Positions 19,963 to 64,000 of a DNA stretch of 64,000 bases are shown in pieces (the stretch's first letter is position 1; every line of letters begins with the position of its first letter). The position numbers were made by a program, and so were the translations under genes. This DNA comes from a virus. The stretch covers positions 1 to 64,000 of the IMG/VR virus record IMGVR_UViG_3300023172_000022; one strand, 5' to 3'. The notes beneath the pieces are model-generated. The model had not been told where the DNA came from and searched no databases. It was given only the letters and a program-made list of their open reading frames with translations.

Positions 19963-22900
19963 TTAACTATTAAGTAGTGCAGTAGAAATAAATGTGGTAT
20001 TAACACCAAAACCACCTTGCAAAAATAAAATTCTCATTCCATTTCCGTAAGCATTTGTACTACCCAATCCTCTATAAAGTCTTCTTCTATCATTAGTTCC
20101 TGTTGTAGAAAATCTGTCACTAGAAAGAATAGTATCTTCACCAACTGCTCCAGCATCTACAAATCCAATAAGATCTATTTCCTTACCAGTATAAAGGTAT
20201 CTGTATGAACCTATTCTGGTTGGGAATTGAATTACAAGTTGTCCATCGTCATTTAATGATAATTGCTCCAATGGATTAATAACCGCATGGGAGTCTCTTT
20301 CATTAATACCGGCAAACACATGTCTACCCCAAGGTTTCAATATGTCTTTTTCTCTGACGACAAATCTTCTAAATCGTCCTTGTTCATTTAAATCGAAGGC
20401 CTTAATATCTTCTTCAACAACTTCATCTACAACAAATTCCGAAACATAATTTCCGTCAATATCATAAATTCCATCATATGCAAGAGAATTTGATCTACCA
20501 GTAGTTTCAGTTTTAAAGAACGGTGTCAAATCAGAGTATAATACTGGTGGTTCGCTGGATGCATATATACAATGAACAGGTTGTGTTGGTGATGTAAAAT
20601 CAGGTTCACCAGTGGTTGAATCTACATGCCTTTGAATGCAGAAAAATGCATTTCTACCTTCTTGTGTGTGCGATTCGTGGTCCTTGATATGGAATACCAT
20701 TCCATGATTTGCAATCGTTAATGTATATGTCATTGGATATGAAGCTGCCAGATTTCCAGTTCTACCAGTTCTTCTATAAAATCCTTTTTGTACTCTAACA
20801 TTTGATGTATTATATGGCGTATCATTCAAAAGTTCTGTTGAACTACCCAGTAGATATGAATCTTCATACCTGTATTCACCATCATCTAAAATGCCATTGG
20901 TTACAGTTCCAGTACCAACTGTATAAGTTACACTATATGAATTGCTACTAGTCCAAACGTCTGGGACGCTATTGAAACCATCAACCGTCGAATGATAAAG
21001 TCCAACTCGTCCAGCGTCTGTGTTCATTTTATTTGCCAAGACACCTTTTAACAAATCTCTTTGTGAATATGGATTATTTTTATGAACAGTTGCGCCAAGA
21101 TATCCTTGATACTGCGGTCTCATACCACCCATGAATCCAGGCTCTCTTTTTGTAATTTTTTGAGTTATATCACTATTGGCTGCAACTTCAGTAACATCAC
21201 CATTTGATAATAATTGATATTCTGTTGCGGCATGAACTGTTAAATACTCAAACTGAGAGCCTTTACCAGTCTGCCCCGAACCAACCTGCAAAAAGCCTTC
21301 ATTAATATATGGAGATGTTTCTGTAAGTTCTTCTCCTCTACTAACATCAAGTCTAAGTCGCCAAGGTTGCGAATTATCAACTCCACCCAAGTTGGTTCTT
21401 TCGTCTGTTTCAAATACAAGTGGGCCCATACTTCTATCGGTAATATATTCAAAAGTATCTATTTCTAAATCCGAAGTATGTGTTTCAAATTGTTTATATG
21501 ATGTATTTCCTAGATTGATTCCGTTATGAGTAGAATTTGGATGTAATTGTCTAAGATTAAAATCAAAAGAAACTTCTGGACCAACAGGTCGTGTTAATCT
21601 AGTACTACTATTGTCATCATCCAATACCAAACTATGATAACTCACTGGATAATTACATGAAGTTGCCCTATCCGCACCAACAGATACGCCCATAGATCCC
21701 TTGCGAACTGGATTGGCCAATGTTCCAAGATCTCTTGCAAGTGGGAAAGACATTCTAATTCTTCCAACATTAGAAAGAGCTGCGGCCCGTGTCTCGGTTA
21801 AAGTAAAATTTATAGGTCCATTATTGCCTGTGTCATCAAAGTCTGTTTCTTCTTCAACTTCTAAAGTTACAGAAAATCTAGCTGCGTCTGGAATGTCCCA
21901 AGTATACATTGAATTCATCCATTCGTCGTCGCGGTTTTTACTTTGAGTATACCAAGCAAGAGGACTTACCATTTTTATTGGTGGCGGCGAATTAGGATCT
22001 TGAGAATATTCAAAAGTAGGATCAAATTTAAGTCTTAAAACATTTGCCATTGCCAAAGCGTCCTTTTGATAACTGAGGCGAATTTCCCCGTCCACCCTAT
22101 TTGAGATTGCATCAATTTCCGTATCCGCGCTGGCTGCCCCATTGTATGCAATTTTTGGAGTATTTGCCAAATTAACATAGTTAGGGTCTGTTGTTCCATC
22201 AAGGAACGTTGTTGCTGTATGATTTGTAATTGGCGTGATTGTGTTCAAGGAACCGTTTGCCGCCATAAGATCTTGATTACCATTATAATAATCTATAAGT
22301 TTATTACCAAAAATTGTTCCATCATTGTAAATCCAATAATTTTCTCCGTCTTGATCAGCAGTTCTTGTAGTAATATTTGACGGAGCATTAAACAATCCCC
22401 ATGCTCTGTCATCTCCGTTTGATGATAGATACTTCTGATATTTTGTGTTCCTGATCATATATGCCGATGAATCTTCATTATATTCTATTCTCAATTCAGT
22501 ACCAACAATATCTATATTCATGTATTTTTGAGTATAAGGACAGTCAGATGATTCTAAAAACGCTTCTAGATCTACCAAAAGAGTACTCGCAGTGCTATAT
22601 GGTTTTTTCGCTTCAAAAGAATAAGAAATGTCAATTGTATTTTCCCAAGGAGTGTCAGAATCTTCATCAACAAGCCCTGTTAAATTTATAGTAAATATGT
22701 CACCTTTATTTGCTCCAGTGAATCCACTAACATTGACACTATGAACATAGCCAGGGATAGAATCTGTATAGTGATAATTGTAGAAGTTTAAGTCAGCATT
22801 CGTTACTTGCCAATTATAATAGCCATAGTAATAGCTATAACTTTGTATTGCTCCAATCTGATAATGACAATTTCTTACTGAAACGTCCCTGTTCAGAAAG

Positions 22901-24504
22901 AACATATCAGCGGCTTTATCTTTTGTTATATCATTATCCAAGTTTGGCCATCCATTTCCAGATGGGAATTTATCCCAAGGGCCAAAAGTAACCGAGTACC
23001 CATGAGTTCTGAAGGGATCATAGTGGAACGTTGTGTTACTCGCCCCCATCGTCTGTGTGACAAATCCTGTCGGGTGATTAGTTGCTATCGCATTGGTTGT
23101 TCCATCTTCTGGACTTTCTTTGTACCCCCTTGATGAGTTTTGGACGGCTTCCCTGCGCGAGGCGTGATATTTTAAAGATATTGCAGTATCCAAAGCAGCT
23201 GCAGTCGCTGCCGCTAAATCAGTATAAGTATACGCTCGATTCAAAGAGGGACTGCTGCCGCCGAATAAACTTCCCCTTCTTGCCGTTGATGAAGATTGTC
23301 CCCTACCGTGTTCTATAATAGTATTTACAAAGGAATATGTTAGTCCAGATAAAAGAGTTCTTGCGGTTCTTGTGAAAGTCAGCCCCCAATCAATAGATTG
23401 CGTTGAAGCTTCAAAATTTGTTACTGTTCCTTCTGGTATCCCACCATCTGGACTGAGAGATCTGAAAACACCACTAACTTTACTCAAAACATTACTTTTA
23501 AGTAGATGATTGTGAACCTCTTGAGCAAAATCTTCTATATCTTCAGCGACAGCTATAAAAGAAACACTTTCGCTTAATGTAGTGTTATCTGACAATTTTG
23601 TTCCAGTAAATGTTAGAGTATATTGATCGTCAGGCTGTACTCTGTCTGCCCCAGCTGCAAATTCAATATTGAAAACGCCTTGAAATGTTTCATTCTCTGT
23701 TACATCAGCAGGGAAAAACTGTTCACCTTTATATGTCGTTATCCAAAAATGATGAATAATCGCCCCAGAAGGTTTTCTTTCTTCTTTGTAGTGCCTTAAA
23801 TTACCTTCTGTATCAATACCAGAAGCTCGATCTGGAAATGCAACTACATTTCTTGCTGGGTTTGTTAGTAATCTTTTAATTTTATTAAATTCATTTTCAT
23901 AAACAAGTTGTGACAGTCTAGGCAACCCAATATAACCTTGTTGACTAGTCGCTGTTGTTTGGATTGCAACATTTGGAGGAATTCTCTTTAACCAATTTCC
24001 ATCTGCATCTCTATTATCGGGATGTGGATTCAAATATGAAAATAATTCGGCGTTTGGACCAAGAAATTTTGTCTTTTCCATCGGTGACGCCCATGCGGTG
24101 GAGTTCGACGATTGAGGTAACTGCATAGCTATAAAATCATTCCAAGTAGGACTTGCATAGGTATTGTCTTCTATAACTTTTGGTTTTAACTGGTTTCCGT
24201 CATAGAAATAGTCTGTAATATATGTAACAGGATCACCGGAAGTCCAATCTCCGACGCCAAATGCGCCCTCGTTTGGAGCCGTCGTCGTTGAATCGTAGTA
24301 ATATACAATGAAACTGTCAATATATCTGGTAAGAGCATCATCTGATATAGTAATTTTGACCATATCTGGGCCAACATCTTTAAATCCATTAGAAAGTAAA
24401 TCTGTCGCCAACCTAGATAATAGGGGGGTTTCTTCCTGTCTTTCGGGATCCCAATCATATGCATCTAAATGTAGAATATCTTGTTGTTCTATTGCAACGC
24501 TCAT
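19963..24504 (-). CDS. Giant virion protein, GNGMR paralogue family (1513 aa)
   Basis: The most divergent of four paralogues in this window. The N-terminal ~1200 residues are mostly unique, with an early segment DPERQEETPLLSRLATDLL. At about 1225-1320 comes the family block (YRRTGRTGN, YPMTYTLTIANHGM, FFCIQRHVDSTTGEPDF, PVHCIYAS). At about 1380-1513 comes the C-terminal module (RRFVVREKDILKPWGRHV, DSHAVINPLEQLSL, FPTRIGSYRYLY, YGNGMRILFLQGG). It has no signal peptide or enzyme motif. I do not know a name for this family. Size, location and beta-rich sequence indicate a virion component, perhaps a large side fibre or baseplate-attached adhesin. It has its own late promoter. Confidence 0.8.
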   Translation of the reverse strand: MSVAIEQQDILHLDAYDWDPERQEETPLLSRLATDLLSNGFKDVGPDMVKITISDDALTRYIDSFIVYYYDSTTTAPNEGAFGVGDWTSGDPVTYITDYFYDGNQLKPKVIEDNTYASPTWNDFIAMQLPQSSNSTAWASPMEKTKFLGPNAELFSYLNPHPDNRDADGNWLKRIPPNVAIQTTATSQQGYIGLPRLSQLVYENEFNKIKRLLTNPARNVVAFPDRASGIDTEGNLRHYKEERKPSGAIIHHFWITTYKGEQFFPADVTENETFQGVFNIEFAAGADRVQPDDQYTLTFTGTKLSDNTTLSESVSFIAVAEDIEDFAQEVHNHLLKSNVLSKVSGVFRSLSPDGGIPEGTVTNFEASTQSIDWGLTFTRTARTLLSGLTYSFVNTIIEHGRGQSSSTARRGSLFGGSSPSLNRAYTYTDLAAATAAALDTAISLKYHASRREAVQNSSRGYKESPEDGTTNAIATNHPTGFVTQTMGASNTTFHYDPFRTHGYSVTFGPWDKFPSGNGWPNLDNDITKDKAADMFFLNRDVSVRNCHYQIGAIQSYSYYYGYYNWQVTNADLNFYNYHYTDSIPGYVHSVNVSGFTGANKGDIFTINLTGLVDEDSDTPWENTIDISYSFEAKKPYSTASTLLVDLEAFLESSDCPYTQKYMNIDIVGTELRIEYNEDSSAYMIRNTKYQKYLSSNGDDRAWGLFNAPSNITTRTADQDGENYWIYNDGTIFGNKLIDYYNGNQDLMAANGSLNTITPITNHTATTFLDGTTDPNYVNLANTPKIAYNGAASADTEIDAISNRVDGEIRLSYQKDALAMANVLRLKFDPTFEYSQDPNSPPPIKMVSPLAWYTQSKNRDDEWMNSMYTWDIPDAARFSVTLEVEEETDFDDTGNNGPINFTLTETRAAALSNVGRIRMSFPLARDLGTLANPVRKGSMGVSVGADRATSCNYPVSYHSLVLDDDNSSTRLTRPVGPEVSFDFNLRQLHPNSTHNGINLGNTSYKQFETHTSDLEIDTFEYITDRSMGPLVFETDERTNLGGVDNSQPWRLRLDVSRGEELTETSPYINEGFLQVGSGQTGKGSQFEYLTVHAATEYQLLSNGDVTEVAANSDITQKITKREPGFMGGMRPQYQGYLGATVHKNNPYSQRDLLKGVLANKMNTDAGRVGLYHSTVDGFNSVPDVWTSSNSYSVTYTVGTGTVTNGILDDGEYRYEDSYLLGSSTELLNDTPYNTSNVRVQKGFYRRTGRTGNLAASYPMTYTLTIANHGMVFHIKDHESHTQEGRNAFFCIQRHVDSTTGEPDFTSPTQPVHCIYASSEPPVLYSDLTPFFKTETTGRSNSLAYDGIYDIDGNYVSEFVVDEVVEEDIKAFDLNEQGRFRRFVVREKDILKPWGRHVFAGINERDSHAVINPLEQLSLNDDGQLVIQFPTRIGSYRYLYTGKEIDLIGFVDAGAVGEDTILSSDRFSTTGTNDRRRLYRGLGSTNAYGNGMRILFLQGGFGVNTTFISTALLNS

Positions 24505-24568: not shown

Positions 24569-26236
24569 TTAATTTATTTCTAAATTGATATTATCTATTG
24601 TTCCATCTGACATTGTAAAATTTAAATAAGATTCTTGTAAGGTATTTCCTAAAAACAGAGAAACTAATGGTATGTCATCACGTACTCCAGTGTGATTAAC
24701 AAATGGAATAAAATTGTTAAAATCGTCTGCTCCACCAACCGACTGAACAGTTGAAAATGTATATTTATTTGTATTGGTGTCATATACCAAAAATGTTGTA
24801 CCCGAAGTAGGAATATCTGATATATTATGCCCAGTGTAACTAAAATTCTGAAGATTGGTATTTATAGTATTAATTGCTGATTGGTTTGTTAGAATTGTAT
24901 TTCTATTTTCGAGAAGGGTAATGTCTAAATCATATTGTGCAACTTCCAAATCATTTAATATTTCAAAGACATCAGCCAATTGAGAACCAATATTTGTATT
25001 TCCAGCAAGAGCATCTTGTATTTCTTTTAGCGTATCAAAATCTAGACTTACATTATCTAAAAGTATATCGAACCTGTCTTTAATTGCCTTTCTAAAACTT
25101 CCTGTAGTTTGATCATCACCATCTACAATTGCCATCTGAGATTGTAATGTATTAATATCAGATTCCATTGTAGTTATATTGGTATTCAATCCAGACAGAG
25201 CTCCACCAACCAAAGCGTCAAATTCACTTTCTAGAGCATTAAAATCTGCAACATGTGAATTAAAATCATTTACATGATTTGTAAAATCTGTAGATACAAA
25301 GTCACCAAGGGCATCCGCAATTTCTTTAAGGGTATCTCTGTCAGAACTGACACCATCTAATAGAATATCAAATCTGTCTTTTATCGCCTTTCTAAAACTT
25401 CCTGTAGTTTGATCATCACCATCTATAGTATCAATGCGACTAGTTTGTGTGGTTAAATCAGTTTCAACTCTTGCAATTTCAGAGGTTAAATCGGTTTCAA
25501 CTCTTGTAATTTCGGTGTCTAAAATAATATCTGCGTCAAATAAAGAAGTTGCAGAACCAATATAATTAGAGTTGGTATCTGGAGAATAATTTCCATTGAT
25601 TGGTTGAAGTCCAGAACCTAAAACTATAGTATTTCGAAAAGTTTCAAAATCTGTTCTAAAATTTAAGGTGTCTCCTAAAGAATCTGCGATTTCTTTTAAA
25701 GTATCTAACTCTGGTATAACACCATCCAATAATTCATCAAATCTTTGTTTTATTAAATATCTTATCGAATCTGGAGTATTTTCGTCTGCCTCTATTATAT
25801 CTAATCTTGCTTCAATATCTGCTACATCAATAGTAATTGTACCAGCTTTTGTGGAAGGATCATAAGAAAAGTTGACTCTACCTTCAAATATAAATTTTTC
25901 CACACCAACTTCGTTTACTATAACACCGTCTACTGAAGTGCCAGTAGTGATCGAAGAACCAATTTGTTGCCACACATTATTGTGAGAATAGTATAAAAGT
26001 CCCGTCTGAGAATCTTTTGCCAATCTTTTGTCTAAAGGACTAGTATCAAAATCAGAAAGAGTGTCAAACTCAGTATACCTGATTAATTGTAAACTATCTC
26101 TGGCTCCTTGTGCGGTAGAGGCCCCAGTGCCACCTTGTGCAATAGCTACAAAATCTCCGTCAGTAAATTCTGCCAGAATTACTTCGCCGTCACCTTGTAA
26201 TATCGCCTTGATAGGTCTTACTGTATCAAATGCCAC
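24569..26236 (-). CDS. Repeat-rich tail fibre (555 aa)
   Basis: The start is a GTG at 26236, with a strong GAGAGGA site 6 nt upstream; no ATG fits. Near the N-terminus is the AQGGTGASTAQGARDSL fibre repeat. Three roughly 100-residue units follow with GSFRKAIKDRFDILLDGV and DRDTLKEIADALGD-type helices; two of them are nearly identical at DNA level. A QPINGNYSPDTNSNYIGSATSL copy of the 990-aa fibre repeat lies near residue 205. Coiled-coil segments precede a C-terminal beta cap (FIPFVNHTGVRDDIPLVSLF). This is a fibre shaft, probably trimeric. Confidence 0.8.
   Translation of the reverse strand: MAFDTVRPIKAILQGDGEVILAEFTDGDFVAIAQGGTGASTAQGARDSLQLIRYTEFDTLSDFDTSPLDKRLAKDSQTGLLYYSHNNVWQQIGSSITTGTSVDGVIVNEVGVEKFIFEGRVNFSYDPSTKAGTITIDVADIEARLDIIEADENTPDSIRYLIKQRFDELLDGVIPELDTLKEIADSLGDTLNFRTDFETFRNTIVLGSGLQPINGNYSPDTNSNYIGSATSLFDADIILDTEITRVETDLTSEIARVETDLTTQTSRIDTIDGDDQTTGSFRKAIKDRFDILLDGVSSDRDTLKEIADALGDFVSTDFTNHVNDFNSHVADFNALESEFDALVGGALSGLNTNITTMESDINTLQSQMAIVDGDDQTTGSFRKAIKDRFDILLDNVSLDFDTLKEIQDALAGNTNIGSQLADVFEILNDLEVAQYDLDITLLENRNTILTNQSAINTINTNLQNFSYTGHNISDIPTSGTTFLVYDTNTNKYTFSTVQSVGGADDFNNFIPFVNHTGVRDDIPLVSLFLGNTLQESYLNFTMSDGTIDNINLEIN
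25021..25424 (-). repeat. 300-bp tandem repeat in the 555-aa fibre
   Basis: Segments 25021-25124 and 25321-25424 align exactly 300 bp apart and include a 38-nt identical core at 25087-25124 and 25387-25424. They encode 100-residue fibre units. A third, degenerate unit lies near 25690-25800. Confidence 0.85.
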
Positions 26237-26258: not shown

Positions 26259-26266
26259 TATTTATG
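26259..26266 (-). promoter_or_regulatory. T4-like late promoter box (CATAAATA)
   Basis: On the minus strand, 23 nt before the GTG start of the 555-aa fibre and overlapping the stop of the PAAR-CHAP gene. One mismatch to TATAAATA. Confidence 0.55.
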
Positions 26267-27347
26267 AAACGGCGCCTTCCGAACCTTCACCAATTTGAAC
26301 TACACTACCTCCACTGGATTCTAAATTGATATTAGAAATAAGTGAGTTGTTATTGCTTTGTACGCACGGAACAGGCCGTCTTGCAGCGGACCAACCAGCC
26401 TTTCCGTCTGATGAAGGTCCTCTACTATAATTTCTTATTGTTAAATTATCACTTTGATTCCCGCCGATAATTTCTATTGTGGTATCAGTCTTGTTTCCTG
26501 TCGCAATTCCAACATGTCCCTTTCCAGAATTTTTATAACTTCTCCAAAAAACAATAATGTCACCCCTTTGAATATCATCCCAACCTACTGGAGTGCCATA
26601 TCCTTCATAATTTCTTGCCGTGGCGCTTGCCAGATGTTTATGTCCAGATCTTTTTAGTGTTGCACCAACAAAAACTGCACACCAATGATTATAACCACCA
26701 CTTGGTAAAAATGCATATTGTCCTAAACCAACCTCTTTCCATAACGAAATAATATTTTGATTATTACCCTGTTCTGTCCATCTTCTTGTAGTCATTGCCT
26801 CGTAAGCAACATCAAACGGATTTCTTAATGGCACATCTTCGCAATTTCTAGAAGATAGTTCTTCTACATTCTCATCTTGAATTTCAGCCGTATCCGGCAA
26901 TCCTAAACCACCCTCACTGGGCGGTAATTGTGATATATTACCCCCACCAGAACTTTCTGTATTACTAGGTTGTGAATCTGTAAAGTCTGGATGTGGGATT
27001 GGACTAAATTTAATTTCTGGAAACTTTGGTGGTGTATATTTTTCTGTACTATCTCCGGCGTTTACATTTCCACTTCCAGTTCTTATAAAGGAACCACAAC
27101 TAATTGGGTCCATCTCTCGCGCCACACCTTTTTTATTTACAAAAACTGATCCAGACCCTTTGGAAATATTGCCTGCGTGTGGTGGAACATTGGGACATGC
27201 ATGTGGTTTAAAAATGTCAACCTTTTCTCTTAAAGTTGGTTTTCCATTCGTAATTACATTATTACTACCAGCTGGACAAGTTCTTGGGGGAAAACAACCA
27301 TGTCCTGTGCATGGATCTGTATTTTGTCCTCTACTTACATTTGGCAT
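26262..27347 (-). CDS. PAAR spike-tip protein fused to CHAP-type peptidoglycan hydrolase
   Basis: The start is the ATG at 27347 (MPNVSRGQNTD). AGAGGA lies 10 nt upstream, and a GTG six bases earlier would leave only 4 nt. Residues 1-97 form a PAAR domain with two GSxxVxxN hairpins (27-34, 65-71) and candidate zinc ligands His16, His49, His57 and Cys84. It is the counterpart of T4 gp5.4, which caps the gp5 spike. A Pro/Ser/Gly-rich linker (about 100-160) leads to a CHAP-like domain (about 175-345) with Cys223 (NHWCAVFVG), His278 (GKGHVGIATG) and EIIGGNQ as likely active-site elements. It probably delivers a cell-wall-cutting amidase or endopeptidase at the tail tip. It overlaps the 1082-aa gene by 17 nt. 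Confidence 0.85.
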   Translation of the reverse strand: MPNVSRGQNTDPCTGHGCFPPRTCPAGSNNVITNGKPTLREKVDIFKPHACPNVPPHAGNISKGSGSVFVNKKGVAREMDPISCGSFIRTGSGNVNAGDSTEKYTPPKFPEIKFSPIPHPDFTDSQPSNTESSGGGNISQLPPSEGGLGLPDTAEIQDENVEELSSRNCEDVPLRNPFDVAYEAMTTRRWTEQGNNQNIISLWKEVGLGQYAFLPSGGYNHWCAVFVGATLKRSGHKHLASATARNYEGYGTPVGWDDIQRGDIIVFWRSYKNSGKGHVGIATGNKTDTTIEIIGGNQSDNLTIRNYSRGPSSDGKAGWSAARRPVPCVQSNNNSLISNINLESSGGSVVQIGEGSEGAVS

Positions 27348-30300
27348 AAGCACTATATCCTCTTGTCGTCACCAGTATATCAGTTACTTGTTGATAATAG
27401 GCACTTTCACTATCGGGTCTTATTGCACAATTAAGTAACAATGGTTCTATATTTTCCAACCTTTCCGCTTCTATGGATGATACTGCAACATTACCCAAAC
27501 TCATTTCTAACAATAAAATATCAAATTCTTCTTTAGTCATATTTAGTTGTCCTAAATCATAAAGTTCTTGTAGTTCAACTTTAGAATTTTCCATTTCTGT
27601 TTTGTTTAAATCGTTGTTAAATCTACCATATCCAGCTTCCCTTAATTTTTTAATTTTTTCTGTTCTAGTTAATATCTCGCCTTCCCAATATCCAAGTTGT
27701 GTATCCGGCAAGGTTTGTTCTTCTGGTTTAACTTTATTCGTATGCAACCATAGATCTCTGTCAAAAGAATAATTATTATGAACTTTTAATTCAAAGTTAA
27801 TTTCTTTTTTAAGTCCACCAGTCCCATCTTGTTCAAAATTAAATAATAAGTATTGTCTATCATCTTCTATATTTGTTATATATTTTTGTTCTACAACGAA
27901 ATTTGTATCAGTTATGACCAAATATGAATATGCAGCCAATTGATTGATTTGTTCATTTAGACTGTCTATCTGTTCCTGTAATATTTCTATTAAAACTTGA
28001 TCGGTAGTATTATTCAATTCTTGTTGAATTTCATCTCTTTTATTTGTTGCAACAATTTCTGCCTGAATTGCAGTGAGGTCGTATTCCGATGTTTCAGTAT
28101 ATTGCTCAAAATCAAAGTCAAAATTTCTGTCCACTTCTACCTCAAAAGTCCATACATTTTTTATTACTGGTGATTGATTAGAATTAAAAATAACGGGAAA
28201 TAATTCTGGGCCTGTTGGAGAAGAAGAGATTCTCGCCCTAGAAGTGACTCCTGTTGTGCTGTTATGTTGTTCTACTGTGTCGCCAAAAGAAGGTAAAACT
28301 GCGTCATCTGGTTCTACGATTTGTATTATTCCTCTAGATATAGCACTCGCTAATATTTTATATTTAAATGTTCTAGGAGTTTTCATATCAAAATCTGTCC
28401 AATCCAAATCTATTGGTGGATGATGTCCTTCGTCAGTCACCCAATTTTCTGTCGCATACTTATTTAAAAATATATCCATATCACTGATTTGTCCCGTCAA
28501 TCTACCATCTGTCGTTAATGTCAAACACTCAAGAAGTCTGTTATCACTTAAAAATTCGTAAGACCAAATATATCTACCAGCCTCTATTCCTTTACCATTT
28601 TTTGAACCAGTATTCATATTAAAATTAACAAATTCAAATTCATATAGTGGGTCATCTTCTCCTAAAGTAAGAGTTATTTCATATTTTATTTCTGATGTAC
28701 TCATAGTAGAAGTTTTAATGTATTCCATTGGCACGAAATGATGCCCATAATAAAGTTTTGGTAAATTTACTGCTTCGTGACCATAAGCTTCAGAACCACC
28801 AGACTTTATTCTGCCTATTGATGATTGAATTTTCATTGGTTCAAAATTTGGCAAACTTTTTACATTGTGATAATAGGTTTGTCCTACAAACAAATCAAAA
28901 ACAAAAAATGGAGTTGACTCATATACAACTTGATTACCACTATATTTGCCGGAAGATTTTCCAAAAACTACAAAATCTGAAATTTGTGCAGTTGAAAATC
29001 TCTGTCCAAATTTTGGATATTGCGATTGAACACTTTCGTATTTTGCTTTTTGTATTGGGTATTGAGATTGTATGCCTTCATATGTTGGTTTCTGAACTGG
29101 ATATTGAGATTGTATGCCTTCATATGTTGGTTTCTGAACTGGATATTGAGATTGTATGCCTTCATATGTTGGTTTCTGAACTGGATAATGAGATTCAATA
29201 CCTTTCAAAGATGCTCTGAAAACCTCTTCTACCATTTTAAACTTAAATATATTAATGTCAGTGTATTGTGTTGGTAAATTTACATAACTTTCATCATTAA
29301 CAAAATAAGAGTATGGTTGTGTATAAACGGCAGGAACCATATTTTCATTTTGAGTCATATTATCCAAATCTAAGAAGAAAAGTTTGTGTAAGAATGTTTT
29401 TTCTTCTTCCTCTTTTAGATATGGACTATAATCTACTTCATATTCATTTAGTTTAGAAAATTGTAAATTTTCTTCAAAGGTTTTATCTGTAGGCCCGACA
29501 ATATAATCCATTTTTACATGCAGCGGATTAAATCTATGAATTCCACTTATAGGTACAAAAGTTTTGTCTGGTGGGCCAATAACCATTGGTTGTATGTAAG
29601 TTGTCTTGGTGGATTCTCTTATTTGAATTAAACCACTATCACCTTGTATTATGAGATCTTTCCCAGAATCAAATCCTGAGTCAATTATTTCGTGCAAGTC
29701 TGTTTTTCTCAAATAATCATTATCTGAAGAAATAATTAATAAATCATCTCTTTGTAAGAAACTATCTATTTCTTTTATCAGTGTAGAAGATTCTAATACA
29801 GTATCTAATGTTCCTTGGAATAATGGTTCACTAGATTTTAAATAATCACTAAATTTGTTTCCAATAGAAAAGAGTTGAGATTCTAAAGTATATTCTCCAC
29901 TTTTTTCTATTAAAGACTTTGCTCTTTTTAAAAAATCTTTAGGACTGGTGCTCAATAATACAGATGGAACAATTACATCTTCTATTAATTTTGAATTTAA
30001 TTTTTCATTTATTGTGAATATTGATAAATTTTCTTCAATATAATTGGATGCAGCAACAACAACATCGATAAGGCCATCGGCACCTATAGTTCTTAATTTA
30101 TTTAAGGAATTTATTAATACTTCGGAATCGTTACCATACTTAGTAAGACTTTCGATTATTTGTCTATAATATTGTTTAGCGTCATTATAAGATAATGTAC
30201 CTACATTACTGAAAAACCCCTTGTCTTTTCTGAAAATTTGTTTTTCCAACATAGGCAGGAAAACTTCAAAGAAACTATTATCATCAGAAACTGAATTCAA

Positions 30301-30579
30301 AGAATTTAATAGTTCAGTTGCTAAATACTCTGTTTGGAATGATTTTCCGATTGATAGTATTTCGTAATCATTACTAACTGTTCCGACAAATGTTGAATCT
30401 TCGGGCGTAGATTGGATAGAATAAATTGACTCAATATAAGTTGAATTAGAAACATTATTTTCAAAAAATTGACTATATATTTGCACATCAACTTCAGATT
30501 TTGATGTATATATTATGTTGTCAAAGAAAATGGTCTTAGCTTTTACTCTAATTCCATTACTGCCTATAATCTGAGTCAT
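27331..30579 (-). CDS. Large tail-associated protein with 14-residue repeats (1082 aa)
   Basis: The N-terminal ~330 residues are helical with Ser/Leu-rich segments (for example DVQIYSQFFENNVS and FSNVGTLSYNDAKQYYRQII). A beta region follows, then about 4.5 copies of a 14-residue repeat (YPVQKPTYEGIQSQ type) at residues ~459-522. Another beta region contains an Ig-like strand set (about 640-700, with LECLTLTTDGRLTGQI). A coiled coil lies near 880-910 (RDEIQQELNNTTDQVLIEILQ in two parts), and the tail is charged. No named family is recognised. It lies between the acidic repeat protein and the PAAR-CHAP tip protein in one operon. It may be a tail-tip or hub accessory that holds the spike, but this is inference. 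Confidence 0.7.
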   Translation of the reverse strand: MTQIIGSNGIRVKAKTIFFDNIIYTSKSEVDVQIYSQFFENNVSNSTYIESIYSIQSTPEDSTFVGTVSNDYEILSIGKSFQTEYLATELLNSLNSVSDDNSFFEVFLPMLEKQIFRKDKGFFSNVGTLSYNDAKQYYRQIIESLTKYGNDSEVLINSLNKLRTIGADGLIDVVVAASNYIEENLSIFTINEKLNSKLIEDVIVPSVLLSTSPKDFLKRAKSLIEKSGEYTLESQLFSIGNKFSDYLKSSEPLFQGTLDTVLESSTLIKEIDSFLQRDDLLIISSDNDYLRKTDLHEIIDSGFDSGKDLIIQGDSGLIQIRESTKTTYIQPMVIGPPDKTFVPISGIHRFNPLHVKMDYIVGPTDKTFEENLQFSKLNEYEVDYSPYLKEEEEKTFLHKLFFLDLDNMTQNENMVPAVYTQPYSYFVNDESYVNLPTQYTDINIFKFKMVEEVFRASLKGIESHYPVQKPTYEGIQSQYPVQKPTYEGIQSQYPVQKPTYEGIQSQYPIQKAKYESVQSQYPKFGQRFSTAQISDFVVFGKSSGKYSGNQVVYESTPFFVFDLFVGQTYYHNVKSLPNFEPMKIQSSIGRIKSGGSEAYGHEAVNLPKLYYGHHFVPMEYIKTSTMSTSEIKYEITLTLGEDDPLYEFEFVNFNMNTGSKNGKGIEAGRYIWSYEFLSDNRLLECLTLTTDGRLTGQISDMDIFLNKYATENWVTDEGHHPPIDLDWTDFDMKTPRTFKYKILASAISRGIIQIVEPDDAVLPSFGDTVEQHNSTTGVTSRARISSSPTGPELFPVIFNSNQSPVIKNVWTFEVEVDRNFDFDFEQYTETSEYDLTAIQAEIVATNKRDEIQQELNNTTDQVLIEILQEQIDSLNEQINQLAAYSYLVITDTNFVVEQKYITNIEDDRQYLLFNFEQDGTGGLKKEINFELKVHNNYSFDRDLWLHTNKVKPEEQTLPDTQLGYWEGEILTRTEKIKKLREAGYGRFNNDLNKTEMENSKVELQELYDLGQLNMTKEEFDILLLEMSLGNVAVSSIEAERLENIEPLLLNCAIRPDSESAYYQQVTDILVTTRGYSAYAKCK
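29014..29202 (-). repeat. 42-bp coding tandem repeat
   Basis: Four 42-bp units plus a half unit, the middle ones nearly identical, encode a 14-residue Tyr/Pro/Gln/Lys-rich motif in the 1082-aa protein. The period is a whole number of codons, so copy number can change without frameshift. Confidence 0.9.
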
Positions 30580-30581
30580 TT

Positions 30582-32633
30582 TTACAACTTCATACTTCTG
30601 TTGATGCCATTTCTATCGATAAATGGGCCTATAACGCTATTTAGTCCTGTAATTTCACCCAATATTGTTACTGGTCTTAAATGATAATAAGTTAAAGTTC
30701 CTCCATGTAATCTTATAACCCCCTTAGATATTCCACCACCAACTAAACTATCGTCAGAACCTATTCCTTGTTCACCAAGATTATCCTCTCCAACATTTCC
30801 TATAATAGACTCTTCTTCTCTGTCATCTTGACCGACATTGGGTGTTACTGTGTCATCTGTGGTGTCGTCTTGTCCCACATTAGGAGTTACAGTGTCATCT
30901 GTAGTATCATCTTGGCCTAAGTTTGTTGTAATGGCATCATCTGTGGTGTCGTCTTGTCCCACATTAGGAGTTACAGTGTCATCTGTAGTATCATCTTGGC
31001 CTAAGTTTGTTGTAATGGCATCATCTGTGGTGTCGTCTTGTCCCACATTAGGAGTTACAGTGTCATCTGTAGTATCATCTTGGCCTACTGATGGTGTCGC
31101 CACTTCGTCAGTTGCATCTTCTTCATTAATTGTAGTAGAGATTGTAGAATCTATTAAGTCACTAGAGTCTAAATTTGGTGTTAAGACAACATCTTCTAGT
31201 TCGTCAGTACTAATATTTGGTAATGTAGTTGCAAACTCTCTAACTAGTCTTTCTAAAACTTCGATTGACTCGTCTGTCGTAAGTCTATTTAATTCTTCTA
31301 TAATATCAGGTGTTATAAGATCAAGTTGTTTTAATTCATTTATTAAATCTTCTTCAGTAAGATTTTTTTCTCTCAATTCTTCTACTAAAACTTCAGCAAC
31401 AATTGTTTTTTCTAACAACTCTTCGTCTTGTTTTAAAAACTCTAAAACCTGTTTTTGTAGTTCTTCTCTTAGAGAATCTTCTGTTTTTATTAGTTCTTGA
31501 CCGACAAGTTCCTCTACAAATTCTCCTATATTTGTATCTAATAAAAATTCTCTAACTGTAAGTTCGTTTAAATTTATTTCATTAATATTAGATTTTTCTA
31601 ATTCTTCAAAGAAGAATTGTCCAAAAGTCTGTTCAACTAATGTTAATTCTTCTTTTTCTAAATTGCCCAACTCTACAATGTCGGTTTCTTCTGTGACAAG
31701 TTTTTCTATGATAGAAAGAACTTCCCTATCAATAAATGAATCTAAAACATTTACTGCTGCCTTTTCTAATTCTTCTATAAAAATACTTTGTTTAGTTTCT
31801 ATTATATCTGCTATTTCGTTTATTGCAGTTTCTTTGAATTCAGATACAATATTATCTATAATTTGTTCTGGTAAATCTTTTACAAAATCTCTTAAAACAT
31901 CATCCGATAAGATTGCAGTTTTTATTTCTTCTTCTACTAAAGAAGTTTCTATTATCTCAGCGAGAGCCTCTGTGCTTATAAGTTCTGTAAGTTCTGTGAC
32001 TCTTGTTTGATTATCAAATAAATCTGAAATATCTCTAGTGCTTATAAGATCAGACTCAGATTCTGCAACAACGGCCTTTACCGACTGTGTTATAGACTCT
32101 ATCAAACTTGTTTTTATTTTTGCAGCGACATCAGCTATTGTTTCTGTGCTGGGTAATGTATCTGCAACTTCAGTTTCTGGTGCGGGTTCTTGTGATAATT
32201 GAGAATCTGCGACTTGATCTTCTGGCACTTCAACCTGAACTATGACAACGGGCAAAGTTTCTCTTACCTGTTCGTAACTTTCTGAATCGGATGATAATGT
32301 AGAAGATACTTCTGTGGGCAAACTTGCAGTATTAAATAAAGAAACGTGCCATTCCATTGCAATTGCGCCGGCGACAGTATAGTTATAAACTGAAGTTTGA
32401 TCGATTGTTGGATTTGTTACTTTTAGTTGAATAGTGTCACCATTATTAAATGATGCAGAATTTCCAACATCAATCCCATTTTTAATAATGGTTCCAGTGT
32501 TAAAAGTAACATTAACTGGTTGTGAACTTAAATCTGTAACAGTTACTATTTCTGAAAAGAGCTCACTTGGACTCGTGAGTCCAGAGCTCATTTCAACATA
32601 GTCTGGTATAAAGAAACTGTCTATGAGTGCCAT
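30582..32633 (-). CDS. Acidic coiled-coil and repeat protein (683 aa), function unknown
   Basis: A 115-residue beta-rich head (MALIDSFFIPDYVEMSSGL ... AGAIAMEWHVSLFN) is followed by about 370 very Glu-rich, helical residues with many Leu/Ile-Glu heptads. Seven 14-residue Asp/Thr-rich repeats (TVTPNVGQDDTTDD type) lie at about 510-608. A basic C-terminal cap ends the protein (GVIRLHGGTLTYYHLRPVTILGEITG). The protein is extremely acidic overall. No family is recognised. The head could attach to the virion and the acidic rod extend outward. It has a GAGGGGG ribosome site, its own late promoter, and a terminator just upstream that isolates it from the 1195-aa gene. Confidence 0.7.
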   Translation of the reverse strand: MALIDSFFIPDYVEMSSGLTSPSELFSEIVTVTDLSSQPVNVTFNTGTIIKNGIDVGNSASFNNGDTIQLKVTNPTIDQTSVYNYTVAGAIAMEWHVSLFNTASLPTEVSSTLSSDSESYEQVRETLPVVIVQVEVPEDQVADSQLSQEPAPETEVADTLPSTETIADVAAKIKTSLIESITQSVKAVVAESESDLISTRDISDLFDNQTRVTELTELISTEALAEIIETSLVEEEIKTAILSDDVLRDFVKDLPEQIIDNIVSEFKETAINEIADIIETKQSIFIEELEKAAVNVLDSFIDREVLSIIEKLVTEETDIVELGNLEKEELTLVEQTFGQFFFEELEKSNINEINLNELTVREFLLDTNIGEFVEELVGQELIKTEDSLREELQKQVLEFLKQDEELLEKTIVAEVLVEELREKNLTEEDLINELKQLDLITPDIIEELNRLTTDESIEVLERLVREFATTLPNISTDELEDVVLTPNLDSSDLIDSTISTTINEEDATDEVATPSVGQDDTTDDTVTPNVGQDDTTDDAITTNLGQDDTTDDTVTPNVGQDDTTDDAITTNLGQDDTTDDTVTPNVGQDDTTDDTVTPNVGQDDREEESIIGNVGEDNLGEQGIGSDDSLVGGGISKGVIRLHGGTLTYYHLRPVTILGEITGLNSVIGPFIDRNGINRSMKL
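30810..31103 (-). repeat. Seven 42-bp coding repeats with 84-bp higher-order pattern
   Basis: Seven 14-codon units in which TVTPNVGQDDTTDD and AITTNLGQDDTTDD types alternate in the middle, giving nearly perfect 84-bp repeats. The terminal units are diverged (VATPSVG at the start, REEE at the end), as expected for a repeat expanding from its centre. Confidence 0.9.
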
Positions 32634-36318: not shown

Positions 36319-36326
36319 TATTTATT
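36319..36326 (-). promoter_or_regulatory. T4-like late promoter box (AATAAATA)
   Basis: On the minus strand, 29 nt before the ATG of the 1195-aa gene and overlapping the stop of the 1551-aa gene by two bases. Confidence 0.55.
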
Positions 36327-54039: not shown

Positions 54040-55713
54040 TTAGAATTCAAATACAACTTTAATATCTTCGATTTGATCTACTGCCCGTGTGATTGGATGT
54101 CTATTTTCTACATATAAAACTTTTCCAGAACCACCTACAATATTAAATTGAGTATCACCATCGTTATATTCACTATTGGCAGGACCTCTGTATGTAGTTT
54201 GGGATGCAAGTTTGTTTGTATAAACATCCACTGGATCAGCAATAATACTTACCTGTCTAAATGCGGAAGTAGAACCAGTTACAGGGAAAACTGATTTTGT
54301 TACCGAATTTCTTGTGTCTGGTTCATCATATTCCAGTTTGACTGCGACCATTGCATAGTAACCATTCAATTCTTCTACTGGATTATGACCATGACCAACT
54401 TCTGGTGAAATTTGTGGTTCAACTTTCGCAGAAGATACACTAGTTGGGTCGACTGTACCACGAACTTCGGCAGTAGCGTATGTATATCCACTACCAATAT
54501 TAGTAATAATAATTTCAGAAACTTGATCTCCGGTCAAATGTGCATAAGCAGAAAATCCTGTTCCATCGCCGGTTGTAAGAACGACATTTGGCGCTATACT
54601 TACTACGCCAGTGCCATCGCCCTCTCCAGCTGCAAAGGCACTTTCGATAGTTACGGTAGCTGTGTTTGTGTTTGAATCAAAAGACCAACCTGTAATTTTT
54701 CTTTGATTTGCAGTAGCAGCACCATCTTTCAGATAAACTAATGCATAATCTGTGTAATCACTAGCTGCAGCTGCGATATTTGCACCACCAGTTATTCCCA
54801 ATGATATTGTAGTTGTGCCTTCGCCTGGAGTAGTAGAAGATTCTACAATCATTGCATTGTAACCACTACCACCGGCATGGCCGCTATTATCGTTGTCGTC
54901 GACAATATCAATCCACTCAATTGCGCCTGGAGATGCAGCTGCGTTTTGTTGGACTTGCCACTGTACATAGTCGGCAGAAGAAGTATCGGATGGAATTGAA
55001 GTGATATATTTTACTGGAAAATAATCTTTCGTTAGAAATTTTAATGCTTGATCTAATTTAATTGAATACATATATTTCCAAACATATCCATCGGTTGTGT
55101 GAATTAATGCGTTGCTTGTGCCTGTAGGTTTGACCGTAGATGCAGTTGGTTGCACACCTTGTGACGAATTAAGATATCTTTTGTTATTAATAACTTTATA
55201 GACATTATACTGATTGTTTGCTTCCGTCAAAACATATGAATTTGGTATCACTTCTTCACTACTTTTATAATTATACATTGTATATTGTGTATTAGTAGTC
55301 CAATTGATTCTTGGAACTGCTAGGGTAATTGTGTCAGCATTAACTTTTTTCACAGCTGTAAGTGCGTTCTTTGCGGAATTTCTTCCAGAGATAGAATCTT
55401 CTGGAGTTGGCGGCAAATTATCATCCTCCCAAGATGTGTGTTTACCAATTCCCAAGAACAAATTATTAAAAATAGATTTGTTGTAAAATGCCCAGTTAAC
55501 ACCACCATCACTGACAACACCAGTTACGTGAGTTGGTGCATTTGGTCCTGCTGTACCATCCGATACTGCAACATATAAATTTGATGCATTAAGAACTACT
55601 TGTCCTTCAGTATATGCTTCTCCAGTTGACCATAATGCAGTTTGTTCATTTACGGCCTCAATAAACTGTTGAGCATTAAAAATTCTAAGTTTATTGGTAA
55701 TTATTGCTGACAT
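54040..55713 (-). CDS. 8: Baseplate wedge protein gp8
   Basis: This 557-aa protein is a homologue of T4 gp8 (334 aa in T4). Matching segments are FNNLFLGIGKHTSWEDDN (T4 ITFGRSEPWSSNEN region), AVPRINWTTNTQYTMY (T4 VIPRRDW), TTDGYVWKYMYSIKLDQ (T4 GDGYVWEYLFEIPPD), FRQVSIIADPVDVYTNK (T4 FRQISIITNPLEA) and the last 20 residues (ENRHPITRAVDQIEDIKVVF; T4 ENRPPIIMAMDQTEEINILF). The extra ~220 residues lie between WKYMYS and FRQVSI and form a Gly-rich, beta-rich insertion. gp8 forms the outer part of the wedge with gp7 and gp6. Late promoter 41 nt upstream. Confidence 0.93.
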   Translation of the reverse strand: MSAIITNKLRIFNAQQFIEAVNEQTALWSTGEAYTEGQVVLNASNLYVAVSDGTAGPNAPTHVTGVVSDGGVNWAFYNKSIFNNLFLGIGKHTSWEDDNLPPTPEDSISGRNSAKNALTAVKKVNADTITLAVPRINWTTNTQYTMYNYKSSEEVIPNSYVLTEANNQYNVYKVINNKRYLNSSQGVQPTASTVKPTGTSNALIHTTDGYVWKYMYSIKLDQALKFLTKDYFPVKYITSIPSDTSSADYVQWQVQQNAAASPGAIEWIDIVDDNDNSGHAGGSGYNAMIVESSTTPGEGTTTISLGITGGANIAAAASDYTDYALVYLKDGAATANQRKITGWSFDSNTNTATVTIESAFAAGEGDGTGVVSIAPNVVLTTGDGTGFSAYAHLTGDQVSEIIITNIGSGYTYATAEVRGTVDPTSVSSAKVEPQISPEVGHGHNPVEELNGYYAMVAVKLEYDEPDTRNSVTKSVFPVTGSTSAFRQVSIIADPVDVYTNKLASQTTYRGPANSEYNDGDTQFNIVGGSGKVLYVENRHPITRAVDQIEDIKVVFEF

Positions 55714-55753
55714 GACGTTACCCTTTGTCGGTTGTGTATTAATTTGTTTCTTT

Positions 55754-55761
55754 TATTTATA
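55754..55761 (-). promoter_or_regulatory. T4-like late promoter box (TATAAATA)
   Basis: An exact consensus match on the minus strand in the 62-nt gap before gp8, 41 nt from its ATG. It separates gp8 and downstream genes from the gp5-25-6-7 unit. Confidence 0.7.
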
Positions 55762-55775
55762 ATATTTTTTATCGC

Positions 55776-60691: not shown

Positions 60692-62572
60692 CTAATTATT
60701 TCTTATGGTTTTTACATTTTGAGTTGTAATATCATAATTATTATTATAATCATCTGTATCTTCTTCAACCGTCACTGTCACATCTTCTTTTAAAATTACA
60801 AGGACTTGATTTCTTCTTGGAAATACATCAAGTCCGGCCGGTACGCATTCGAGTCTAAAAACTTCCAATGAACCCTCGACGGCCTCAATATTTACCGGAT
60901 CAATATTTATTGTGCCAGTTTCGTAATTTACACTACCAGTAATTTTAGTTGAATATATTTTTTTATCATTCACATCAAAGGTGTAAAATTTTAATTTTCC
61001 ATCATAATTTGAAGTTTCTTCTACATAGTAAATTCTAGTATCTCCTACAACTCTAACACCAACAGATTTTATACTACCTTTTTTAATTTTATTGTTGAAA
61101 TTAAAAACATAAAATGCAGATGTATTAAACAAAACTGTCTGTTCATTTATAAGTCCAACGTAAGTTTCATTATTCGTGATCGATTGATCCAGAGTATCTA
61201 TCCAATTTACAAAATTAGAGTATCTAAAATAATCATTGAAATCGTCTAGATATTTTTTACTGAAAGAAACAATACCATTAGAAACAATATTTTTAATATC
61301 CGATTGACTGAGAGATGTAGTTTCATTATCATACTGAACTGTAGTATTAATTTTCAACTTTGTATATTCTGCATCAACTATTTGTGGTTCGATTGAGAGA
61401 ACAGAATAATCTTTTCTAAGTTTTTTTCTAATTTCTTCTTTTGTATACTCAGAAAGAAAAAATCCAGTATCTGGACGAATTGAAATATACACTCTACCAT
61501 AAGTGGGTGGAATATTATCTTCTCCACCCCATATGTTTAATGATTGAGTTGAAGGATAAATTTGTGGGATAATAGTTTTATAGTCATTAACAGTGACGGC
61601 TCTACCTTGTCCGCCAAAAGTTTTTGGTGCGTGAAATTTTATAGATTCAATATCCTCTTCGTCGGCACCACCAGCACTTCTACTAACAACTTCGATACTA
61701 TCAAGTATTTCATAATTACTAATTTTGCCCTTTGCATCAATTTTTACTATTTCATTGCCAGCAGATCCGGAAGTTGTTAAATAATTTATTTCTATCATTT
61801 GTCCAGACTCTATTTGAGCCCCTAAGACACCATCCCCAAAATAAATTTCATAATTACCACCTCTACCTTCTTGAAGGAAAAACGCCTTCTCAAGTTCAGA
61901 TAATTTCATATTATCATTAGATCTTTTAAACTCTTGTTTTTCTGGAAAATCTGGATTATCGTATACAAAAACTGTAATTGTACTAGTATCTACATCACTA
62001 TTTGTCAATAAATACCTTTGATTTGGATCATTTGTATTTACAATATAATTTTCCGTTACATATGTACCTTGAATTAAAACAACATCTTTAACCGAAAAAA
62101 CATTTGTAAAAGTGCCATCAGATCTTGCCAAAGATGAAACTTTCGGCACTATTACATTGTTTTTTGGTCTGAATTTATAAGATATTCCATCTTTTGTTGC
62201 AGTAAATTCGAAATCTTTATTTAACATGAAAGTTTCATATACATTACTAGAAGATTTTGGTACTGTACCTTGAAATTCTAAATTTACAACCATCTCTGCG
62301 GCCTTTTTTGACCTTGGGGTATAATTTAGCATTTTTGCTTTAGATACAACATTATCTCTAATTCTAGCGGTATCCAAAAACATTTCGTTAGAAATGGCAT
62401 TCATATAATATGAATTAATATGAGTGTTAGTTGCAAGAATATCGATAAGAGTATTCAAACCAGACGCTTGAAAATCGTAATCTTTGAATTCTTTTTTGGA
62501 ACTCATATAATTTATAATACTAGTTTTTATTTCTTCAAAGTCTAATTCTGTAATTTCTATTGTCTTTGCCAT
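60692..62572 (-). CDS. 6: Baseplate wedge protein gp6
   Basis: 626 aa (T4 gp6 is 660). The N-terminal helical domain (DFEEIKTSIINYMSSKKEF, ASGLNTLIDILATNTHINSYY, NEMFLDTARIRDNVVSKAK) is diagnostic of gp6/gpJ baseplate proteins, as is the central YEIYFGDGVLGAQIESGQMI followed by INYLTTSG. gp6 forms the iris ring of the baseplate that links wedges and rearranges on contraction. Its ATG overlaps the gp25 stop (TAATG at 62570-62574), so the two partners are translationally coupled. The gp7-like gene follows after 8 nt, and gp8 after that, as in T4. Confidence 0.95.
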   Translation of the reverse strand: MAKTIEITELDFEEIKTSIINYMSSKKEFKDYDFQASGLNTLIDILATNTHINSYYMNAISNEMFLDTARIRDNVVSKAKMLNYTPRSKKAAEMVVNLEFQGTVPKSSSNVYETFMLNKDFEFTATKDGISYKFRPKNNVIVPKVSSLARSDGTFTNVFSVKDVVLIQGTYVTENYIVNTNDPNQRYLLTNSDVDTSTITVFVYDNPDFPEKQEFKRSNDNMKLSELEKAFFLQEGRGGNYEIYFGDGVLGAQIESGQMIEINYLTTSGSAGNEIVKIDAKGKISNYEILDSIEVVSRSAGGADEEDIESIKFHAPKTFGGQGRAVTVNDYKTIIPQIYPSTQSLNIWGGEDNIPPTYGRVYISIRPDTGFFLSEYTKEEIRKKLRKDYSVLSIEPQIVDAEYTKLKINTTVQYDNETTSLSQSDIKNIVSNGIVSFSKKYLDDFNDYFRYSNFVNWIDTLDQSITNNETYVGLINEQTVLFNTSAFYVFNFNNKIKKGSIKSVGVRVVGDTRIYYVEETSNYDGKLKFYTFDVNDKKIYSTKITGSVNYETGTINIDPVNIEAVEGSLEVFRLECVPAGLDVFPRRNQVLVILKEDVTVTVEEDTDDYNNNYDITTQNVKTIRNN

Positions 62573-63003
62573 TATCTTATTCTTTCTATACTAAATTGAG
62601 TAGAAAATACTTCTTCGGATGCTGGTACTTGATATGTTAATACTATAACTAGAGTATTTTCGTCTTTAAGTGGCTTGAAATTTATACTTAATTCTCTTAC
62701 TCTAGGCTCAAAATTTGAAATTGCGTTTTCCATTCTATTTTTTATATTTATTACAGACATATCATCCAATGGTTCAAATATATCTTCCCAAATATTTCCA
62801 CCAAAGCTTGGTTGAAATGGTCTTTCGAAAAAATTTGTTAGAATTAAATTTTTCAAAGATTGGTTCACTGCGGCCGCATCTCTTTTTTTTCTAACATCAT
62901 TTGTAATTGGATTTTTTTTAAATGATAAATCAAAATCAACAAATTGATTTTGTTTACTTTTTAATACTCCAAGTCTGTTTTCTAAATTTACTAATTCTGA
63001 CAT
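62572..63003 (-). CDS. 25: Baseplate wedge protein gp25
   Basis: This 143-aa protein of the GPW/gp25 family (T4 gp25 is 132 aa) shows ITNDVRKKRDAAAVNQSLKN, FERPFQPSFGGNIWEDIFEP (residues ~60-80) and the hallmark ISNFEPRVREL near 100. gp25 binds gp6 and gp53 at the wedge core and resembles T6SS TssE, nucleating sheath assembly. In T4-like phages gp25 adjoins gene 6, as it does here. The family signature is complete and there is no sign of truncation. Confidence 0.95.
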   Translation of the reverse strand: MSELVNLENRLGVLKSKQNQFVDFDLSFKKNPITNDVRKKRDAAAVNQSLKNLILTNFFERPFQPSFGGNIWEDIFEPLDDMSVINIKNRMENAISNFEPRVRELSINFKPLKDENTLVIVLTYQVPASEEVFSTQFSIERIR

Positions 63004-63012
63004 TTTTAAAAC

Positions 63013-64000
63013 CTATGGATTTAAATCTATTTTTGGTGCTTTGATTGTGTGGTTGCCACCGGAAGTTATATCTATTTTGCCACCGACACCTGTAGTTGAT
63101 TTTTTACCAACTACTAAATTAAAGTTTCCTTCGACCACTATAGTTAAATTACCACCAACATGTAAATTTTTATTACCCATAACTAAATCAAAACCATCTC
63201 CAACTGTTTTAGAAACCTTTTTCCCGTCTGGATGATATTCTTCAAAAGAACCAGATCTGTGATAAGTATGAATTCTTTCTGCGCCTGGAGTATCGTCAAT
63301 TTCTAATACATGGCCTGTAGGAGTCCTTATCGCTTGATTATATGGATAAACGGCGGCATAAGGAGATTCTGGCTCAGTAAATTTAGAATTACTGACAAGT
63401 TCATTTTTTGTTTCTGAACATTCGGATTGTGGTTCATCCGGCAAACCACATCTTGTGGGCAAATCAGAATCTGCTGTTTGCGTAGGAGTTTGTGAACTAT
63501 TAGTACTATTAACAGTACGATTGCCAGATTGATTATTAGTATTTACACTTTGACTTATTTCATTAGAAATACTATTCATTGATCTTTGATTTCTTTGATC
63601 AATAACATCATCTGGTGATAACGCTGCAGCTGGGGTTCCTGTTGGGTCAGACAAAAACATCGCCCTCTCTTCCTGTCTTCTAGTTGCCAATGCATCAATA
63701 GTTTGTCCACTTGCCTTATTGTATAGTAACATTTTGTTTGCAATGGTTTCATTGTCTCTTGTACCATTATTAGTCAATTGGTCAAGTCCGCCGGGCCCAA
63801 GATTATACGCAAAGGAAGTTAGAGCATCTCTTTGTCTTTCGTTCCAAGTGTAACCGTATTGTTTTTCTTTTTCCAAAACATATCCTCTATATTTTGCTAT
63901 ATTTTGTGATAATCTAGCTTCGGCCTCTTGCTCATCAATCACTTCGCCCGGATAATTTGCCTTTGTACCATAACCAATTGAGTGTTGTTTATGATCCCAA
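63013..64000 (-). CDS. 5: Baseplate hub gp5: tail lysozyme and spike (5' end beyond window)
   Basis: The frame stays open from the stop at 63013 to the window edge, so a GTG at 63942 is not the start. Residues encoded upstream of it read WDHKQHSIGYGTKANYPGE, the T/S-IGYGT core of a GH24 lysozyme. It continues with RDALTSFAYNLGPGGLDQL and ATRRQEERAMFL. The catalytic Glu would lie outside the window. After a Ser/Asn/Thr-rich linker comes the gp5 C-terminal part: YPYNQAIRTPTGHVLEIDDT, PGAERI, then short Gly-punctuated beta-helix strands (NLHVGGNLTIVVEGNFNLVV). gp5 forms the membrane-piercing spike and degrades peptidoglycan. The PAAR-CHAP protein at 26262 probably caps it. Confidence 0.92.
   Translation of the reverse strand, partial: WDHKQHSIGYGTKANYPGEVIDEQEAEARLSQNIAKYRGYVLEKEKQYGYTWNERQRDALTSFAYNLGPGGLDQLTNNGTRDNETIANKMLLYNKASGQTIDALATRRQEERAMFLSDPTGTPAAALSPDDVIDQRNQRSMNSISNEISQSVNTNNQSGNRTVNSTNSSQTPTQTADSDLPTRCGLPDEPQSECSETKNELVSNSKFTEPESPYAAVYPYNQAIRTPTGHVLEIDDTPGAERIHTYHRSGSFEEYHPDGKKVSKTVGDGFDLVMGNKNLHVGGNLTIVVEGNFNLVVGKKSTTGVGGKIDITSGGNHTIKAPKIDLNP

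Follow-up and report, generated by a model that had tools for sequence, protein, structure and literature searches.

Does the open reading frame at positions 26265-27347 encode a phage spike tip that carries its own cell-wall enzyme? An original prediction had proposed that this gene joins an N-terminal PAAR domain to a C-terminal CHAP-like domain through a flexible linker. We addressed this question for the window, i.e., the whole analysed stretch of 64,000 nucleotides, which represents bases 1-64000 of an incomplete viral record of 76,301 bases. The gene starts with an ATG at 27347 and runs on the minus strand to a stop codon at 26262-26264, with the following layout:

26265..27347, minus strand: PAAR-CHAP fusion protein, 361 aa, single open frame, PF05488 and PF05257 both above their gathering scores
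27051..27347, minus strand: PAAR domain, residues 1-99 (PF05488 PAAR_motif at residues 26-86, E 1.2e-8; pLDDT ~95; metal ligands H16, H49, H57, C84)
26844..27050, minus strand: Pro/Ser/Gly-rich linker, residues 100-168 (pLDDT <50 at residues 104-154)
26364..26843, minus strand: CHAP/NlpC-type domain, residues ~169-328 (PF05257 CHAP at residues 218-297, E 1.8e-6; structure matches; C223, H278, N297)
26265..26363, minus strand: C-terminal tail, residues 329-361, of low prediction confidence, ending GEGSEGAVS, as delimited by the prediction and tail comparison

Profile searches, the predicted fold and conserved residues all bore out the two-domain architecture. AlphaFold2, run with an input alignment of 66 sequences, returned two confident domains that matched PAAR tips and NlpC/CHAP hydrolases, respectively, with a disordered linker (residues 104-154) between them. 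In the PAAR half, the Pfam match was accompanied by matches to PHROG 281 'PAAR' (8e-26) and to NCBIfam T6SS_PAAR_dom (5e-20, below its curated cut-off). Residues 2-98 of the predicted model matched c1882 (4jiw; Z 17.4, rmsd 1.0 over 93) and T4 gp5.4 (4ku0; Z 16.2), and the VCA0105 PAAR tip was also among the structure matches. The three-His plus one-Cys set of metal ligands of PAAR tips is present, with H16 found in 33/33 alignment rows and H49, H57 and C84 each in 32/33. Profile and fold are thus those of spike-tip proteins, and the window protein shares with T4 gp5.4 and the c1882 and VCA0105 tips the PAAR fold, the metal ligands and a presumed seat on a gp5 or VgrG beta-helix. In T4, gp5.4 binds the terminal beta-helix strand of gp5 as a cap (PMC4576200), and by analogy the window PAAR presumably sits on the blunt beta-helix end of its own gp5. 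T4 gp5.4 is a bare tip, whereas the window PAAR continues into a linker and a CHAP domain.

For this second half, the Pfam match was joined by matches to the PHROG 1259 family 'baseplate hub and tail lysozyme', over its CHAP part (2.6e-21), and to NCBIfam TIGR02594 (5e-14, below its curated cut-off). Given the Pfam, PHROG and NCBIfam scores of the PAAR and CHAP matches, chance is excluded as their origin. The CHAP domain was modeled with a pLDDT of ~92 (mostly >90 for residues 170-330), and residues ~173-327 of the predicted model resembled NlpC/P60 and CHAP hydrolases with Z about 10-12 (10.5-11.9), including the CHAP of LysK and a hydrolase-like region from a diffocin baseplate protein. In this model, helix 222-233 begins at C223 and strand 277-286 at H278, which is the usual NlpC/CHAP layout. 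The alignments showed that all six residues singled out by the original prediction (H16, H49, H57, C84, C223 and H278) had been correctly named; it had not listed N297, which is likely the third catalytic residue. The protein hence combines the fold with the Cys-His-polar catalytic set of CHAP/NlpC-P60 cysteine hydrolases, suggesting that the domain would cut peptidoglycan. As CHAP folds span amidases, endopeptidases and enzymes that do not act on the wall, we assign no specific bond to it. A catalytically dead fold that binds the wall or acts as a plug at the tip would be conceivable, because inactive NlpC-fold proteins exist and the non-catalytic NlpC/P60 protein RipD was among the structure matches, but C223, H278 and N297 are invariant in 36/36 rows of the CHAP alignment, and we regard such a role as the least probable of the readings that we weighed. 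Two further cysteines, C169 and C328 (window 26841-26843 and 26364-26366), flank the domain in 6/6 aligned clade members, are absent from other CHAP rows, and might form a disulfide.

The genes around the fusion point to a tail protein of a T4-like phage that is known from sequence data alone. Profile searches identified T4-type baseplate genes (gp5 and gp6-, gp8- and gp25-like) in the record, and the window also contains a long series of large tail-fibre-like genes:

63013..64000 (continuing to 64527 of the record), minus strand: gp5, 504 aa, with OB fold, T4-type lysozyme and C-terminal beta-helix ending IDLNP
62572..63003, minus strand: gp25-like baseplate wedge protein (PF04965 4.1e-15; tail context)
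60692..62572, minus strand: gp6-like baseplate wedge protein (phrog_219 5e-160; tail context)
54040..55713, minus strand: gp8-like baseplate wedge protein (phrog_438 3.6e-72; tail context)
27331..30579, minus strand: 1082-aa protein directly upstream of PAAR-CHAP (order same in a 141-kb relative)
24569..26236, minus strand: 555-aa tail-protein-like neighbour downstream of PAAR-CHAP (order same in the 141-kb relative)

The PAAR-CHAP gene sits among the tail-fibre-like genes at a distance of ~36 kb from gp5, and its start is overlapped by the 3' end (27331) of the upstream gene. This location bears on whether the protein could instead be an endolysin or lysis protein with an incidental PAAR-like piece, acting inside the cell when infection comes to an end. 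While TIGR02594-type CHAP domains are known in stand-alone endolysins too, the gene has tail genes around it, the metal ligands of its complete PAAR part are conserved, relatives have the module joined to gp5, a virion spike protein, and endolysin relatives show neither the clade-specific linker nor the clade-specific tail, all of which renders a lysis role very improbable. Regarding the surrounding genes themselves, the two genes upstream of PAAR-CHAP (27331-30579 and 30582-32633) contain in-frame short repeats (SQYPVQKPTYEGIQ; DDTTDDTVTPNVGQ), and four large fibre-like proteins (window 19963-24504, 32703-36290, 36325-40980 and 41045-42985) have a C-terminal region in common, for which the PHROG 12249 label 'tail sheath' is doubtful.

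A lysozyme domain in gp5, also claimed earlier, was confirmed by a match to the T4-type lysozyme family (PF00959, 2.8e-17), with the correction that gp5 lies only partly inside the window, its full frame being 63013-64527 of the 76,301-base record. As read from the sequence, the domain has Glu and Asp in T4 spacing, with Ser replacing the Thr of T4. With its gp5 bearing a lysozyme and its PAAR protein a CHAP, the phage therefore encodes one wall-enzyme domain on each, and both would be placed on one tail tip. The gp5 gene is adjacent to a paralogue without lysozyme, located beyond the window (64560-65372), and this pair is preserved in the 141-kb relative (G001 54770-57134); a mixed spike trimer of the two paralogues is possible.

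The fusion is not peculiar to this record. Alignment-based scans of IMG/VR viral contigs found PAAR-CHAP in 17 further contigs belonging to five lineages (L013 and near-copies; L098 and near-copies; L211-L215; L224/L232; L233/L348/L360/L373), while a single-protein scan of viral contigs found 0 fusions. The 141-kb L013 contig matches the window phage gene by gene, with PAAR-CHAP 48% and the lysozyme-bearing gp5 56% identical; a lysozyme-free second gp5 is present there too, and PAAR-CHAP has the same neighbours. The 17 other contigs and this conserved synteny rule out an assembly artefact or chance fusion. Since the fusion records of 76 (the record studied here), 141, 123 and 190 kb each contain one PAAR and one CHAP match, both of which lie in the fusion, the fusion is the sole candidate tip within each of these records, the 76-kb one being incomplete.

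What the original prediction lacked is that, judging from their genes, relatives shift one and the same CHAP module between the two proteins, PAAR and gp5. In more than 20 other contigs, an OB fold, a beta-helix, the linker and the CHAP are joined in one gp5-type protein, and a separate PAAR gene directly follows; linker, CHAP and C-terminal tail are homologous between the two designs. Because the module of gp5-CHAP directly follows the gp5 beta-helix and the PAAR gene adjoins, the enzyme would be located at the same end of the spike in both. The complementary arrangement is seen in L098, where a bare 259-aa gp5 is directly followed by PAAR-CHAP. In both designs, the CHAP proteins of the spike terminate in a conserved C-terminal tail, e.g., SGxGGxVT or GGxxVKVV (window 26265-26300; L013, L097-L099, L190-L216, L233-L235 and L360), of which the GEGSEGAVS of the window protein is a divergent form. 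A pattern that was composed after the tails had been seen occurred in 28/189 CHAP ORFs versus 8/3125 other ORFs. Other CHAP proteins (L216-L230, L234, L235, L238 and L389) begin with a short N-terminal piece that resembles one PAAR hairpin (xNVFxNxVPVALW), which, from its sequence, is possibly a reduced tip.

Among isolates, no phage record covered >=80% of the query in tblastn searches with five queries, in which fast-diverging fusions could escape, and the isolates Melnitz and HTVC008M have an unfused PAAR. At 989-2992, Melnitz EXVC044M (L245) encodes a beta-helix protein of gp5 type whose C-terminal region resembles VanY/M15 peptidases (weak profile match); a further OB protein of this phage has a VanY-like domain. 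In bacterial genomes, a first scan found no relative, and a second scan yielded 80 CHAP loci, 0 of which had a PAAR match in the same ORF or the examined flanking DNA.

The PAARs of L098 and L212 share 61-73% identity with the stand-alone PAARs encoded by Melnitz, HTVC008M and L097, and those of the window phage and L013 resemble a different subtype, with L013 62% identical to AcaML1. Because the PAAR halves belong to unlike subtypes, CHAP was joined to PAARs at least twice. The CHAP tree, in which the window sequence forms a long branch, weakly agrees with repeated joining. A single switch between gp5 and PAAR was weakly rejected, with AU p values of 0.029 for one PAAR clade and 0.008 for one gp5 clade, and a one-clade test of window and L013 gave p 0.31, with the window again being a long branch. 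In L233/L348/L360/L373, the sole lineage in which it was measured, dN/dS amounted to 0.05-0.15 for PAAR and 0.07-0.13 for CHAP; both domains of this lineage, whose PAAR is reduced, are under purifying selection. More tentatively, linker, CHAP and tail may constitute a movable cassette that is passed between gp5 and unlike PAAR tips, following the evolved-shaft/evolved-tip logic of type VI effectors, with the tail as the signal by which the enzyme is loaded onto, or docked to, the spike; we consider this possible but less than an even prospect.

Taken together, the data make it likely that PAAR-CHAP is the metal-stabilised tip of a contractile-tail spike fused to a virion-borne peptidoglycan hydrolase that complements the gp5 lysozyme. 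Weighing against this reading are the distance of the gene from gp5, the lack of an isolate with the fusion in the tblastn searches, the variety of reactions among CHAP folds, and the CHAP of the window phage itself, with its long branch and a score under the NCBIfam cut-off. We infer docking on gp5, presence in the virion, enzyme activity, the bond cut and the order of events. The PAAR half would seat on the C-terminal end of the gp5 beta-helix, like T4 gp5.4, and the flexible linker would tether one CHAP domain beside or past the tip. Upon tail contraction, the tip would pass through the outer membrane and carry the CHAP into the periplasm, where it would cleave the peptide part of the wall beside the puncture, while the gp5 lysozyme, staying with the tube side, would cleave glycan strands. 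In T4, the gp5 lysozymes stay blocked for as long as the beta-helix is in place (PMC3004832); if gp5 behaves likewise here, its lysozymes would be active only once the beta-helix is off, and the two enzymes would thus act at slightly different places or times. By analogy with T4, the CHAP would meet the wall first because it is tethered past the tip.

Evolved PAARs with enzymes, including amidases (PAAR-linked Tae4), have been described for type VI secretion and eCIS (PMC8651086), and the window protein resembles them in carrying a C-terminal enzyme on a PAAR in one chain, peptidoglycan amidases being among their cargoes. Type VI evolved PAARs kill rivals, whereas the window fusion is phage-encoded and would presumably breach the wall of the infected cell. 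It does not have the setting of a type VI effector, i.e., type VI genes in a bacterium plus an immunity gene: the viral record in which it occurs has T4-like tail genes, and none of its direct neighbours (tail-type or unassigned proteins of >500 aa) is an immunity-gene candidate. The fact that type VI evolved PAARs deliver effectors (PMC8651086), together with the entry of the tip into the cell, would also fit a CHAP that is delivered with the tip into the host envelope or cytoplasm, e.g., for excluding rival phages or processing a host protein. However, the families nearest to it comprise peptidoglycan hydrolases from phage hubs and endolysins, and wall enzymes occupy the same place in related phages (the gp5 lysozyme, and the weakly matched VanY/M15-like region of Melnitz gp5), so that we deem an effector role improbable and retain the spike-borne hydrolase.

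Related CHAP domains on the spike occur in the gp5 of Ackermannviridae (PHROG 1259) and in the gp5-CHAP of uncultivated T4-like phages (L097, L099, L100 and others), the L097-type sharing linker and tail with the window protein as well. The window phage does not follow the Ackermannviridae arrangement of a CHAP inside gp5, as its CHAP is on the PAAR chain and its gp5 bears a lysozyme. As gp5 is a trimer in T4, gp5-CHAP would presumably be present in three copies, and a CHAP on PAAR presumably in one. The T4 gp5 tail lysozyme is itself a wall enzyme on the spike, and is also present in the window phage; it is glycan-cutting, located within gp5 and restrained by the beta-helix, whereas the window CHAP is papain-like and lies outside gp5. 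HydH5 and phi11 Gp49 (PMC5380687) likewise provide two kinds of wall enzyme per virion, as would be the case for the window phage, but they belong to phages of Gram-positive hosts, while in the window phage the enzymes belong to two separate proteins of a T4-type spike. According to a 2017 review, PRD1 and phi11 were the only virions known to contain two different lysins, and two-domain lysins were confined to phages infecting Gram-positive hosts (PMC5380687).

A 2021 survey of jumbo phages described phage PAARs as unfused, unlike type VI PAARs (PMC7824862), and our literature search, which covered few subscription papers, found no published description of a phage PAAR-CHAP. While the evolved-PAAR principle is already known, the phage PAAR-CHAP appears to be new, and the conserved fusion contradicts the printed view of phage PAARs as bare tips and of fusions as a cellular type VI invention (PMC7824862). 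The phage machine uses both mounts for cargo, with a PAAR-enzyme fusion in some phages and the same enzyme on gp5 in their relatives. A T4-type spike would thereby gain two wall chemistries on two separate parts, and the natural PAAR fusion offers a test case for the cargo that can be mounted on a spike tip.
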